From positions 1 through 64,000 of the forward strand of contig NZ_SDKM01000008.1 of NCBI RefSeq assembly GCF_004519545.1: 64,000 bases of DNA, written 5' to 3'. This stretch comes from Nocardioides guangzhouensis. Lineage in GTDB: Bacteria > Actinomycetota > Actinomycetes > Propionibacteriales > Nocardioidaceae. The number at the start of each line of letters is the position of its first letter. The stretch's first letter is position 1. The notes under the pieces were generated by a model. The model saw only the letters and a program-made list of their open reading frames with translations, was not told the DNA's origin and ran no database searches. Positions 1,380 to 49,981 of this stretch are shown here, in pieces. A program made the translations under genes and the position numbers.

Positions 1380-3857
1380 CTACCCTGCCACACCGGAACC
1401 CGCCCCCAGACGCGCCGCCACCGGGCCCGCGACGGCGACGATCGGCTGGCTTCCGGGGACGCCGGACCCGTCCCGCCTGCCGGTGGCCTCGGGCAGCTCG
1501 ACCGGGGCCCCGCTGGAGGCTGCGGCCCGGGCCGGGGCGTCGCCCGCCCAGGCCAGCACCAGCGCGTCCTCGCCGCGCAGGAAGCGGTGGCAGCGGACGC
1601 CGCCGGTGCCGCGGCCCTTGGCGGGGTACTCGGCGAACGGGGTCACCTTGACCGACCCTGGCTCGGTGCCGGGCAGCGCGGTGGAGGAGCCGGACGACGT
1701 GACCACGACCGCGTCCCCCGACCCGAGCGCGCCGAACCAGAGCACCGACTGGCCCCCGGTGACCCGGATGCCGGCGATGCCGCCACCGGAGCGACCCTGC
1801 GGCCGCACGGACCCCGCGGAGTAGTGCAGGAGCTGGGCGTCAGTGGTGATGAAGCAGAGCGTCTCGGTGCCGGTGACCAGCTCGACCGCGCCGACCACCT
1901 CGTCGCCCTCCTTGAGCGAGATGACGTCCCACTCGTCCTTGCCGAGGACCTCGGGGTTGACCCGCTTGACGACGCCCTCCCGGGTGCCCAGCGCCAGGCC
2001 GGGGCCGTCGGTCGAGAGCGAGGTGAGGGCCAGGAGCCGCTCCCCGGAGTCGAGCGAGAGCGCCTCGCTGACCGGCAGGCCGCCACCGAGGTGCGGGTCG
2101 TTGGCCGAGGGCGGCAGAGCCGGCAGGTCGAGGACGCCGAGCTTCACCAGCCGGCCCCGGGTGGTGAGCGCCCCGATCTCGCCACGGGCGGTGGTGCGGA
2201 CCGCGGACACGATGACGTCGTGCTTGGCCCGGCCGCGGCCGGTGCCGGGGGTGTCGTCGCTCGTGGTGCGGGCCAGCAGCCCGCTCGAGGAGAGGTAGGC
2301 GTAGCAGGGGTCGTCGGCCACCTCGAGCGGCGTCGCCGCTGCGGTCACCGCGGTCCCGGCTGACTCCAGGAGCACCGTGCGGCGCGGGGTGCCGAAGGTC
2401 TTGGCGACCTCGCCCAGCTCGTCGGAGACGACCTTCCGGAGCAGCTTGTCGTCGGCGAGGATCGCGTCGAGCTCCTCGATGGTGCGGCGCAGCTCCTCCT
2501 GCTCCTTCTCGAGCTCGATCCGGCTGAACTTCGTCAGGCGGCGCAACGGCATGTCGAGGATGTAGTCGGCCTGCACCTCGCTGAGGTCGAAGATGCCCAT
2601 CAGCCGCTCCTTGGCAGCAGGGGCGTTGTCGGAGGACCGGATCACCTGGATGACCTCGTCGATGTCGAGGATCGCGATCAGCAGCCCGTCGACGAGGTGC
2701 AGACGGTCGGCGGCCTTGCCGCGGCGGAACACCGAGCGTCGGCGTACGACGTCGAAGCGGTGCCCCAGGAAGACCTCGAGCAGCTCCTTGAGCCCGAGCG
2801 TGCGCGGCTGCCCGTCGACCAGCGCGACCGCGTTGATGCCGAAGGAGTCCTCCAGCGGGGTCTGGCGGTAGAGCTGCTCGAGCAACGCCTCGGGGTGGAA
2901 GCCGTTCTTGACCTCGATGACCAGCTGGAGGCCCTTCTCGCGGTCGGTGAGGTCCTTGATGTCGGCGATGCCCTGGAGCTTCTTGGACTGGACCAGGGTC
3001 TTGATCCGCTCGACGACCTTCTCGGTCCCCACGCCGTAGGGGAGCTCGGTGACCACGATGCCCTTGCGCCGCGCGGTGACCGACTCGACCCGGGCAGTGG
3101 CGCGCATGCGGAAGGTGCCCTTGCCGGTCTCGTAGGCGTCGCGGATGCCCTCCAGACCCACGATCTTGCCCCCGGTGGGCAGGTCGGGGCCGGGGATGAA
3201 CCGCATGAGGTCGTCGACGGTCGCGTTCGGGTGGGTGATCAGGTGCTTCAGTGCCTGCACCACCTCGACCAGGTTGTGCGGGGCGATGTTGGTGGCCATG
3301 CCGACCGCGATGCCGGTGGTGCCGTTGACGACGAGGTGGGGGATCGCGGCCGGCAGCACCGCCGGCTCGAGCTCCCGGCTGTCGTAGTTGGGCCGGAAGT
3401 CGACCGTGTCCTCGTCGATCGAGGCGGTCATCGCCACCGCGGGCGGTGCCATCCGGCACTCGGTGTAGCGCATCGCAGCCGGCGGGTCGTCCGGGGAGCC
3501 GAAGTTGCCGTGACCGTCCACCGTCGGCAGCCGCATCGCCCACGGCTGCGCCATCCGGACCAGCGCGTCGTAGATCGCGCCGTCGCCGTGCGGGTGCAGG
3601 CGACCCATGACCTCGCCGACGACGCGGGCGCTCTTGACGTGCCCCCGGTCGGGGCGCAGGCCCATGTCGTTCATCGTGTAGAGGATCCGGCGCTGCACCG
3701 GCTTCAGCCCGTCCCGGGCGTCGGGGAGCGCGCGGGAGTAGATGACGGAGTAGGCGTACTCGAGGAACGACGTCTCCATCTCCTGCTTGATGTCGGTGTC
3801 GAGGATGTGCTCCTCGAAGTCGTCCGGCAGGGGCGGTTGCGTCGTACGTCGTGCCAT
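1380..3857 (-). CDS. parC: DNA topoisomerase IV subunit A
   Basis: Type IIA topoisomerase A subunit, 825 residues, which cuts and passes DNA and partners with ParE (not in this window). The winged-helix and tower breakage-reunion part spans about residues 20-480; the active-site tyrosine is Tyr131 in AAMRYTE. The C-terminal beta-pinwheel (about 500-820) lacks a canonical gyrase QRRGGKG box and has only RPQGRSGGG, which fits ParC rather than GyrA. The quinolone region reads [10 protein letters not shown], with Gly93 where E. coli GyrA has Ser83. The start has a GGGAGA ribosome site. lprG starts 5 bases after its stop. The gene neighbourhood resembles that of Streptomyces parC. Confidence 0.93.
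1382..1387 (-). promoter_or_regulatory. -10 box for leaderless lprG
   Basis: On the minus strand CAGGGT is followed by six bases and then the ATG of the lipoprotein gene. It abuts the parC stop codon (1382-1380). No -35 was scored. Confidence 0.4.
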
Positions 3858-45820: not shown

Positions 45821-46408
45821 ATGGAGATCCGCGTCGCCCGCCCCGAGGACGCCGCCGCCGTACGCCGCGCGGTCGCGGCCGCGTTCGGCGCCGAGACCGC
45901 GGAGCACGGCACCCAGGTGGCCGACCTCTGGGACGCGGTCGAGGCGGCCGGTCACGTGCGGGCCAGCCTGGTCGCCGACGGCGACGGCGCCGTGGTCGGC
46001 CATGTCGGGGTGAGCCACGCCTGGGTCGACGCCCGGCCGGCGCTGGTCGACGTGGCGGTCCTGGGTCCGCTCAGCGTCCGTCCGGAGGCCCAGCGCGGCG
46101 GCATCGGCACAGCGCTGGTTGCGGCCGCTGTCGAGGCGGCCCGGGGGCTCGGCGTACCGGCGATCTTCCTCGAGGGTGCGCCGCACTACTACGGAGCCCG
46201 GGGCTTCCGGAAGGCCAGTGACCTCGGGTTCGCTCCCGCGTCGGCGCGCACCCCGGACGCCGCCTTCCAGGTGGTGGTCCTCGACACCCACGAGGAGTGG
46301 ATGACGGGGCGACTGGTCTACCGCGACGTGTGGTGGGTGCACGACTCGACCGGGCTGCGGGACCCGCGACTCGCGGAGCTCGAGGGGCGGTTCGGGCGAA
46401 GCTCCTGA
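45821..46408 (+). CDS. GNAT-family N-acetyltransferase
   Basis: Protein of 195 residues with the GNAT fold. The acetyl-CoA motif is RPEAQRGGIGTALV near 87-100, preceded by VLGPLSV; the C-terminal segment YYGARGFRKASDLGF is a common small-molecule GNAT feature. The substrate is unknown. It is divergent from the small-gene operon. GAGGGT lies six bases before the ATG. Confidence 0.85.
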   Translation: MEIRVARPEDAAAVRRAVAAAFGAETAEHGTQVADLWDAVEAAGHVRASLVADGDGAVVGHVGVSHAWVDARPALVDVAVLGPLSVRPEAQRGGIGTALVAAAVEAARGLGVPAIFLEGAPHYYGARGFRKASDLGFAPASARTPDAAFQVVVLDTHEEWMTGRLVYRDVWWVHDSTGLRDPRLAELEGRFGRSS

Positions 46409-46412
46409 CAGT

Positions 46413-46428
46413 TCGAACAGGTGTTCGA
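46413..46428. promoter_or_regulatory. LexA/SOS box
   Basis: TCGAAC-AGGT-GTTCGA exactly fits the actinobacterial LexA consensus TCGAAC-N4-GTTCGA. It abuts the -10 box TAGACT (46429-46434), so LexA binding would block polymerase. Confidence 0.85.
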
Positions 46429-46434
46429 TAGACT
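46429..46434 (+). promoter_or_regulatory. -10 box of the SOS-box gene
   Basis: TAGACT lies six bases before ATG 46441, predicting a leaderless transcript starting at or next to the A of ATG. The LexA box occupies the spacer just upstream. Confidence 0.65.
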
Positions 46435-46440
46435 GGTGGC

Positions 46441-46806
46441 ATGCTCGTCGCCCCGCCCGGCTGGCCCGCACAGGTCCGGCCCCCCGACGCCCCCGACTGG
46501 GAGCGCACCGCGGTCAACTGGCTGCTCGACATCTGCCCGCCCGAGTACCGCTCCTATCCCGCGCTGCGCCGCCACGTGGTGGTGCTGGCCCGGTTCGCGG
46601 TGCTGCACGTGGAGGCCTGCCAGCAGTCGTGCGAGCGGGGGCTGAGCCAGGCCCGCTCCGAGCTGCGCGACGTCGCCGACGTGGACGTGGTCGAGGCCGC
46701 GGTGCAGACCTGGCACGCCGAGTCGGCCCGGCTGCTCGCCGTACGCCGCGCGGCCGGGCTGGTCGAGGAGGCGCTGCGCGGGCGTCGCTACGTGGCCCGG
46801 CTCTGA
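46441..46806 (+). CDS. hypothetical SOS-controlled helical protein
   Basis: Protein of 121 residues, largely alpha-helical, with W/Y near the N-terminus (WERTAVNWLLDICPPEY), three cysteines, and RSELRDVADVDVVEAAVQTWHAESARLL toward the C-terminus. No membrane segment or catalytic motif. Homologues appear common in actinobacteria, but I cannot name the family. A perfect LexA box and a -10 box precede the start codon, so it should be induced by DNA damage. No dnaE2, imuA or imuB neighbour is present. Confidence 0.8.
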   Translation: MLVAPPGWPAQVRPPDAPDWERTAVNWLLDICPPEYRSYPALRRHVVVLARFAVLHVEACQQSCERGLSQARSELRDVADVDVVEAAVQTWHAESARLLAVRRAAGLVEEALRGRRYVARL

Positions 46807-47425: not shown

Positions 47426-47514
47426 GCCCACACCTCCCCACCGGTGCGGCACACCGGCACCCGTCCATGATGCCCGGGAGCGGCCGGTCGGGGCAGGCCG
47501 CTAGCCTCACGGGG

Positions 47515-47946
47515 ATGCAGCGCTTCTCCAGCATCGTCCTCGTGGACGCCCGCGGCTGGGTGCTGCTCCAGGAGCGCGACGAGCACCCGGTCATCGACCC
47601 GGAGATGTGGGGCTTCGTCGGCGGCCACGTCGACGACGGCGAGGAGTACCTCGCGGCGGCCTACCGCGAGCTCGCCGAGGAGACCGGCCTGCACCTCGAC
47701 GGCGGCCTGGAGTGTTTCGGCGTGTTCCCGGTCCAGCACACCCACGCCGACGACCTGGACGAGCTGTCGCTGTACGTCATGCGCGCCGACCTCACCGACG
47801 ACGACATCGTGCTCGGCGAGGGCCGGCAGATCGTGTTCGTCGACCCGGCCACGGTCACCGACCTGCCGCTCACGGTGGCGGCCCGGCAGGTGCTGCCGGG
47901 CTTCCTGGCCTCCGCGACGTACCGGCGGCTGGCCGCCGGTCCCTGA
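47515..47946 (+). CDS. NUDIX hydrolase
   Basis: Protein of 143 residues with a full Nudix box, GHVDDGEEYLAAAYRELAEE, at about 41-60. It hydrolyses a nucleoside diphosphate linked to another group; the preferred substrate is not visible. The start lies seven bases after TAGCCT (47502-47507), so the mRNA may be leaderless. A promoter and leader for dxs follow. Confidence 0.92.
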   Translation: MQRFSSIVLVDARGWVLLQERDEHPVIDPEMWGFVGGHVDDGEEYLAAAYRELAEETGLHLDGGLECFGVFPVQHTHADDLDELSLYVMRADLTDDDIVLGEGRQIVFVDPATVTDLPLTVAARQVLPGFLASATYRRLAAGP

Positions 47947-48076: not shown

Positions 48077-49981
48077 ATGGGCTACCTGGAGTCGATCTCG
48101 ACCCCGCGTGACCTGCGTGGCCTGACCGCCGACCAGCTCGACGACCTCGCGAGCGAGATCCGCGACCGGCTGGTCGCGGTGTGCTCGAAGACCGGCGGGC
48201 ACCTGGGCCCGAACCTCGGCGTGGTCGAGCTCACCCTGGCCATCCACCGGGTATTCGACTCGCCCCGCGACCGGATCGTCCTCGACACCGGCCACCAGTC
48301 CTACGTCCACAAGCTGGTCACCGGCCGGGCCGCCGGGTTCGACGGCCTGCGCAAGGAGGGCGGCCTCTCCGGCTACCCGAGCCAGCGTGAGTCCGAGCAC
48401 GACATCGTCGAGAACTCCCACGCCTCGACGGCCCTGTCGTACGCCGACGGACTGGCCAAGGCCTACGCGATCCGGGGCGAGGACCGGCACGTGGTGGCGG
48501 TCATCGGAGACGGCGCGCTGACCGGCGGCATGGCCTGGGAGGCCCTCAACAACATCGCAATCGCCAGGACCAGCCGGCTGGTGATCGTGGTCAACGACAA
48601 CGGCCGCTCCTACACCCCGACGGTCGGCGGGCTCGCGACCGCGCTGACCACGCTGCGCACCAACCCGCGCTACGAGCAGGTGCTCGACCTGGTGAAGCGC
48701 CGGCTGACCTCGGTCCCCGGCGTCGGCCCCGCGGCGTACGACACGCTGCACGCGATCAAGAAGGGCATGAAGGACGCGCTCGCCCCGCAGGGCCTGTTCG
48801 AGGACCTGGGGCTCAAGTACGTCGGGCCGGTCGACGGCCACGACCGTGCCGCGATGGAGCAGGCGCTGGCCCAGGCGAAGCGCTTCAACGGCCCGGTGAT
48901 CGTGCACGCGCTGACCCGCAAGGGCTTCGGGTACGACGCGGCGGAGCAGCACGAGGCGGACCAGTTCCACTCGCCCGGGCCGTTCGACATCGAGACCGGC
49001 GAGGAGACCCCGAAGGGCCGGATCTGGACCGACGTGTTCTCCGAGGAGATCGTCCGGATCGGCGAGCAGCGCCAGGACGTGGTGGCGATCACGGCGGCGA
49101 TGATGCACCCGGTCGGTCTCGACGCCTTCCAGCACAAGTTCCCCGAGCGCACCTTCGACGTCGGCATCGCCGAGCAGCACGCCGCCACCTCCGCGGCCGG
49201 GCTGGCGATGGGCGGCCTCCACCCGGTCGTCGCGGTCTACGCGACGTTCCTCAACCGCGCCTTCGACCAGGTCCTCATGGACGTGGCGCTGCACAAGTGC
49301 GGGGTCACCTTCGTGCTCGACCGCGCCGGTGTCACCGGCGATGACGGCGCGAGCCACAACGGCATGTGGGACATGTCCATCCTCCAGGTGGTGCCCGGGC
49401 TGCGGCTGGCCGCACCCCGCGACGCCACCCGGCTGCGCGAGCTGCTGCACGAGGCGGTCGCGGTCGATGACGCCCCGACCGTGGTGCGGTTCCCCAAGGG
49501 GCCGCCGCCGGAGGACGTCGCGGCGGTCGGCAAGGCTGGCGCCGCCGACGTGCTCGTGCGCACCGGCACCCGCGACGTGCTCGTGGTCGCGCACGGCGCG
49601 ATGGCCACGACGGCCGTCGAGGTCGCCGACCGGCTGGTCGCCCAAGGCATCGGCGTGACCGTCGTCGACCCGCGGTGGGTGAAGCCGGTGGACCCGGCGA
49701 TCGTCCAGCTGGCCCGCGAGCACCGGCTCGTGGTCAGCATCGAGGACAACGGCGTGGTCGGCGGCTGCGGCGCGGTGCTGCTGCAGACCCTCAACGAGGC
49801 GGGCGTCGAGACTCCGTACCGGCTGCACGGGATCCCGCAGGAGTTCCTCGACCACGCCAAGCGCGCGGCGATCCTCGACCGGATCGGCCTCTCCCCGCAG
49901 GCCCTCGCGCTCGGCATCGTCGAGGACATGACCGCGCTGGCGCACGGCTCGACGCTGGTGGATGCCGAGCAACCGGGCTGA
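48077..49981 (+). CDS. dxs: 1-deoxy-D-xylulose-5-phosphate synthase
   Basis: Protein of 634 residues that condenses pyruvate and glyceraldehyde-3-phosphate in the first step of the MEP isoprenoid pathway. The TPP domain has [16 protein letters not shown], and the transketolase pyrimidine-binding domain spans about 320-480 with [17 protein letters not shown]. The C-terminal transketolase domain is complete (about 495-630). GGAGG precedes ATG 48077. Its 3' end overlaps the next lipoprotein gene by 20 bases. Confidence 0.97.

Follow-up and report, generated by a model that had tools for sequence, protein, structure and literature searches.

Gene X of Nocardioides guangzhouensis, a probable LexA-controlled SOS gene of an undescribed actinobacterial family

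A gene for a small protein of soil actinobacteria, here called gene X and studied in Nocardioides guangzhouensis, is in all likelihood an SOS gene under the control of LexA and belongs to an undescribed family. In the SOS response LexA represses its targets, and they are induced when LexA undergoes self-cleavage, which RecA provokes once it sits on single-stranded DNA. The comparison of upstream regions among homologues strongly supports LexA control of gene X and, since this damage switch has been kept nearly unchanged, the gene very probably belongs to the bacterial DNA-damage response as a component not yet described. The family is named by none of the libraries searched; it is very probably undescribed as a family and of a known kind as a gene, that of the LexA regulon.

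Promoter, LexA box and their conservation

The window, which is the whole stretch of 64 kb that was analysed, contains the following elements at the start of gene X.

46405 to 46410, + strand: -35-like element CTGACA, 5/6 to TTGACA, 18 bp before the -10 element; tentative
46413 to 46428, no strand assigned: LexA box TCGAACAGGTGTTCGA, 12/12, occupying the promoter spacer; 11-12/12 in 58/60 distinct regions of the same bacterial family
46429 to 46434, + strand: -10 element TAGACT; in 48/57 loci of this family the corresponding TAnnnT precedes the start codon, mostly by 6-7 nt
46441 to 46806, + strand: gene X, open reading frame of 121 aa starting at ATG 46441, unnamed actinobacterial family, apparently leaderless

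These coordinates agree with the original prediction, which had described a perfect LexA box overlapping the core promoter, TAGACT six bases before an ATG and a protein of 121 residues. The box matches at all 12 letters and lies between the -35-like CTGACA and the -10 TAGACT, and the six bases GGTGGC separate TAGACT from the start codon. It is the sole match without mismatch in the window; with up to two mismatches allowed, it has seven matches where 2.56 would be expected (sd 1.42; maximum of 100 shuffles 6), the six others being imperfect. Over the whole genome (5.27 Mb) four boxes are perfect, that of gene X among them, and 30 have at most one mismatch, compared with 10 for a reversed control pattern.

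The conservation of the box was measured in 72 loci of gene X from the bacterial family of the window (f1, Nocardioides-type on the basis of named contigs with identical upstream sequence). They gave 60 distinct upstream regions, where loci with the same last 60 upstream bases count as repeats and L071 and L075, having no upstream sequence, are left out. Loss of the box in close homologues had been named beforehand as the refuting outcome, and what was found is retention at 11-12/12 in 58 of these 60 regions: 48 score 12, 10 score 11, one scores 10 (L085) and one scores 7 (L072, a homologue from a metagenome bin in which the box is lost). Reversed sequence never scored above 9, and shuffled regions reached at least 11 in 0.05% of cases. 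In an alignment of 58 regions, identity is 93-100% at the twelve box letters, against 28-50% for the 25 bases before the box; within the four-letter spacer, A occupies the first position in 91%, and identity at the remaining three is 43-72%. Since the box letters stay constant while the flanks drift, the box has been retained by selection.

A wider set of 159 distinct upstream regions from 29 bacterial families was scored with a box defined as at least 10/12, L181 (G061) having been removed before counting because it was judged not to be a family member; the plasmid-collection loci L183-L186 lie outside this set. The box is present in 59/60 regions of f1, 22/22 of f20 (all at 10-12/12), 5/6 of f2 and 3/5 of f36, two f36 regions having none, and it is absent from all 66 regions of the 25 other families. 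Boxes in f2 are weak, with scores of 11-12/12 in two regions, 10 in three and 8 in one, and at locus L124 a 10/12 box overlaps the start codon. Resemblance to named copies suggests that f20 is Streptosporangiaceae-like and f22 Streptomyces-like. Unlike the window gene, none of the nine f22 loci has a LexA box, nor does the Streptomyces chartreusis copy, which scores 8/12; the Nonomuraea gerenzanensis copy (L184) carries an 11/12 box. The PafBC promoter motif was found in none of the 71 regions scored as box-less. On a tree made by a quick method (123 columns, 130 rows; poorly resolved) the box state changes at least 7 times, or 8 times when L124 is taken as box-less, and gain and loss are indistinguishable because the tree has too few columns. 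A further copy of gene X lies on a plasmid of Nonomuraea sp. NBC_00507 (L183, 5992-6381), with a weak box (10/12) and two unknown genes behind it.

The position of the box relative to the promoter falls into two classes. Over all families, 75 of the 89 box-bearing regions have a TAnnnT either 0-2 nt (37 regions) or 7-10 nt (38 regions) after the box; it never occurs at 3-6 nt, and the remaining 14 regions have no TAnnnT in range. The box thus occupies the spacer in one class and coincides with the -35 position in the other, and both placements are compatible with repression by LexA. Matches to a -35 element across homologues were barely above the shuffled control. The distance from the end of the TAnnnT to the start codon is 4-9 nt, and in most cases 6-7 nt, in 48/57 loci of f1 (counting loci where a start codon could be placed 8 nt or more behind the box, which was not possible in two further f1 loci), 14/21 of f20, 1/5 of f2 and 1/2 of f36, and a Shine-Dalgarno-like word was seen in 5 of 85 box-bearing loci. 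Because of this position of TAnnnT and the rarity of Shine-Dalgarno-like words, a leaderless transcript is well supported for f1 and f20 as far as sequence can tell, which is in agreement with the apparently leaderless start proposed originally.

The LexA regulon of the same genome

The genome encodes a LexA DNA-binding domain (PF01726, E 7.2e-28, above the cut-off), and lexA is preceded by an 11/12 box that begins 150 nt before the domain match. The 16-mer of gene X recurs letter for letter before the dnaE2 operon (DUF6504-HEPN_SAV_6107-dnaE2) and before an alkB-like gene, and the boxes of lexA and uvrA share 15 of its 16 letters. Further boxes precede recA and a LysM-domain gene, the latter having several of 10-11/12.

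The operator type of the gene X box is the one reported for LexA of Streptomyces venezuelae, whose motif is tCGAAC-N4-GNNCGa (PMC9380542). In the parts of that study considered here, recA, lexA, dnaE2 and an alkB-like gene are targets in common with the present genome, and uvrA has a LexA peak. Its section 7, Table 1 and the passages used contain nothing recognisable as the gene X family, and most of the S. venezuelae LexA targets are given there as being of unknown function.

Three loci of the regulon deserve a separate description. In the start region of the LysM gene (L187, G000:C156, 1934-2017), four LexA-box-like sites of 10-11/12 lie inside 84 bp. At L194 (G000:C93), a perfect box at 3462-3477 precedes a minus-strand 2OG-Fe(II) oxygenase gene (2824-3441), which we read as AlkB-type; its geometry is again leaderless, with the box followed by 8 nt, TACGGT, 6 nt and a GTG. 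At L196 (G000:C135, 1233-1559), a protein of 97 aa without Pfam match stands behind a perfect box and is another orphan controlled by LexA; all 12 loci examined, its own included, have an upstream box that scores 11/12 or better, and 25/58 genomes match the protein, many of them weakly.

The mutasome operon itself seems, among the matches listed, to take two forms in relatives (L195 (G000:C95), L197-L226). In the first, the box is followed by DUF6504, HEPN and dnaE2 with a Y-family polymerase further off; in the second, the box is followed by HEPN with the polymerase adjoining. A link with gene X was considered when the DUF6504-HEPN spacing first seemed to follow its presence. From the listed polymerase positions, both arrangements were found in genomes with gene X (among the matches listed), and the idea was therefore dropped.

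Distribution, selection and predicted structure of the protein

Neither the window protein (P0001) nor nine diverse members matched a Pfam or NCBIfam family above the curated cut-off, with sub-threshold matches only. Gene X was found in 37 of 96 genomes, its own included (38 matched, and G061 was judged false). Among the genomes of the same genus 31/59 have the gene and 28/59 do not, so that it is not essential to the SOS response in the genus. A class-wide sample gave 119/296 genomes with gene X, and a phylum sample of 149 gave six matches, all inside the class Actinomycetes; in the samples searched the gene was thus seen in this one class only, the search beyond the phylum being a close-relative search, among the matches listed. 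In collections of mobile elements, no phage record matched at E <= 0.1, 0/6 candidate stretches from IMG/VR were confirmed as relatives, PHROGs gave one match (E 0.0076) for 1 of 13 members and PADLOC gave none for the 13 members searched; five records of a plasmid collection match, four of them longer than 1 megabase. The protein is under purifying selection, as indicated by the differences at the three codon positions (259, 232 and 549 in 13 comparisons) and by dN/dS values of 0.18-0.46 in the eight pairs computed. Nothing on gene X was found in the titles and abstract openings of the papers listed, and the gene may be listed somewhere in print.

A structure was predicted with AlphaFold2 from 31 sequences (that of the window and those of loci assigned by name to Nocardioides or to close relatives), with a mean pLDDT of 90.8. 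The model has these main parts.

46441 to 46497, + strand: N-terminal extended arm, residues 1-19, with the PPGWP motif; pLDDT blocks 85 and 93; W8 and P9 invariant
46576 to 46671, + strand: long helix 1 of the hairpin, residues 46-77, AlphaFold2 model
46681 to 46776, + strand: long helix 2 of the hairpin, residues 81-112, AlphaFold2 model

A helix at residues 20-31 and short helices complete it. The model is a confident one and predicts an all-helical product, with a long two-helix hairpin and an ordered N-terminal arm rich in proline and tryptophan; the prediction thus bears out the helical protein foreseen from the sequence. In an alignment of 128 rows, which excludes L178 and L159 (another selection of sequences excludes L178, L159, L179 and L180), the residues W8, P9, L28, P33 and L49 are identical in all 128 rows, R72 in 122 and R37 in 119. 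These conserved residues do not seem to resemble a catalytic site.

The searches for relatives of the fold gave no clear partner. Foldseek returned none at E <= 0.001 against PDB and viral structures, and the best E value of a PDB sequence search was 1.5. With VIA the best match was 3qo8 (Z 10.3, rmsd 5.7 over 76 residues), followed by 3qne (10.1, 2.4 over 72); these scores sit in the range that the notes of the program give for helical models or generic hairpins without clear relatives. Neither these searches nor those of the family and phage libraries led to a homologous fold or family that would suggest a damage-related activity, which counts against the main reading.

A relationship to the SAV_6107-like HEPN family was considered and rejected. 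The segment RFAVLH resembles the RX4H motif and the SAV_6107 HEPN gene; the hhalign probability was 0.7% over 25 columns, the motif varies within the family, R51 being present in 103/128 rows, and no Pfam HEPN match was found for the window protein and nine diverse members. As to the HEPN fold in the wider sense, Foldseek gave no PDB match at E <= 0.001 and the VIA scores fall among those of generic hairpins.

Gene neighbourhood and possible roles of the product

Selection must value the damage-controlled expression of gene X, since the switch is so well kept and its geometry so fixed. The following mechanism is proposed. LexA on the box would cover the promoter spacer and block RNA polymerase at gene X; after DNA damage, RecA on single-stranded DNA would cause LexA to cleave itself, and transcription would yield a leaderless mRNA with its 5' end at the ATG or beside it. 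The product, a small, probably soluble, all-helical protein consisting of an arm and a hairpin, with no catalytic site seen, would act through binding, serving a protein of repair, replication or transcription as accessory or adaptor while the DNA is damaged. We put forward such an accessory role tentatively. A more specific form of it, which we regard as speculative and somewhat unlikely, is a new class of SOS effector, with gene X as its first member seen: a hairpin protein of Actinomycetes, once a standing helper in the acn-dxs region, would have been put under LexA in more than one lineage and would dock its hairpin and Pro/Trp arm on RecA, the replisome or RNA polymerase, adjusting that machine during damage.

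The original prediction of an undescribed DNA-damage response factor is upheld in its regulatory part by the conserved box, its fixed geometry and the boxes at recA, lexA, uvrA, the dnaE2 operon and the alkB-like gene; a role of the protein itself in damage is inferred, and 25/29 families have the gene without the box. As the box is missing from these 25 families, f22 among them, from the Streptomyces chartreusis copy and from 2/5 regions of f36, the job of gene X is not always tied to the SOS response.

The neighbourhood of the gene bears on this question, and two landmarks of it lie downstream in the window.

47467 to 47946, + strand: NUDIX hydrolase, Pfam PF00293; a convergent gene lies between gene X and it here
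48077 to 49981, + strand: dxs, Pfam PF13292, recurrent downstream landmark

Seven neighbours (43.8-51.2 kb) were scanned with Pfam and include GNAT, F420H2-dependent reductase, NUDIX, dxs and thiamine-binding proteins, one with a sub-threshold peptidase-MA match and one without match; none is a mutasome gene, as had been stated from the sequence. In other genomes, acn or a trmA-like gene is found directly upstream of gene X in 34 of 70 box-less regions versus 1 of 89 box-bearing regions, the single case being an f2 region with a weak 10/12 box and acn upstream. Downstream, dxs is present in 44/57 box-less regions outside f1, f2, f20, f22 and f36 and in 6/6 regions of f2; of the 19 f1 regions that extend 3.5 kb or more past gene X, 17 have dxs there in the same orientation as gene X. 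We infer that acn/trmA-X-dxs is the ancestral setting. None of these landmarks was found in the 22 regions of f20 or the 9 of f22 (mostly 3 kb on each side), so that the f20 box stands at a different locus; the Nonomuraea gerenzanensis copy is a named example of a box recurring beside other neighbours.

This arrangement is what would be expected if gene X were a housekeeping helper of the acn-dxs region, acting in central metabolism or isoprenoid synthesis, placed under LexA in some lineages, for example as a metabolic brake, and having no part in DNA repair. We consider this unlikely: the steady neighbours could be inherited without any functional link, and the f20 and f22 regions, in which none of the three landmarks was found (mostly 3 kb on each side), indicate that the linkage is not required.

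A role of the product as accessory to the error-prone mutasome (dnaE2, DinB/ImuB) is quite unlikely. The DUF6504-HEPN_SAV_6107-dnaE2 operon resembles gene X in that the same genomes have a small unknown helical protein, the HEPN one, behind a LexA box, and in this genome the two 16-mers are identical. However, gene X is unlinked to the operon, which lies on a different contig in this genome, the SAV_6107-like HEPN gene is absent from 5 of the 37 genomes with gene X and gene X is absent from 50 of the 82 genomes with HEPN. Moreover, the product has no profile similarity to HEPN_SAV_6107, and in its model two helices form a hairpin that is preceded by a Pro/Trp arm.

Division is often blocked by small SOS proteins that share no sequence relationship, and SulA, YneA, ChiZ/Rv2719c and DivS are small SOS-induced division inhibitors that are unrelated between lineages. 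Gene X, being also small and probably behind SOS control, with one of the four perfect boxes in its genome, could encode a growth or division inhibitor of this kind, which we nevertheless hold to be very unlikely. Unlike the LysM/YneA-type inhibitors, its product has no LysM match, and a separate LysM gene with its own LexA-like boxes, which we take to be of the usual actinobacterial checkpoint type, is present elsewhere in the genome. The product is not hydrophobic overall (GRAVY -0.14), and the 34/70 box-less copies directly behind acn/trmA-like genes stand where steady expression is expected. A chance origin of the palindrome, favoured by a GC-rich genome, is hardly credible: a single-genome scan does yield chance near-matches, as the reversed control pattern did, but the box is conserved in 58/60 f1 regions amid drifting flanks with a fixed promoter geometry, and it occurs in 0/66 regions of the families serving as negative controls.

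A small helical protein under LexA control therefore remains our preferred reading of gene X. Actinobacteria include antibiotic producers and pathogens. The lineages with a box and those with the acn/trmA-X-dxs arrangement offer a clean test of whether a housekeeping gene became an SOS gene or the reverse and, the product being a single small protein, its role is accessible through one deletion.

Finally, a NUDIX gene aligns at most 150 nt downstream of gene X on the same strand in 19/60 f1 regions, many of which have only 1.5 kb of downstream sequence, so that gene X and the NUDIX gene may be driven there as a pair by LexA. In the window the two are separated by a convergent F420H2-reductase-like gene.
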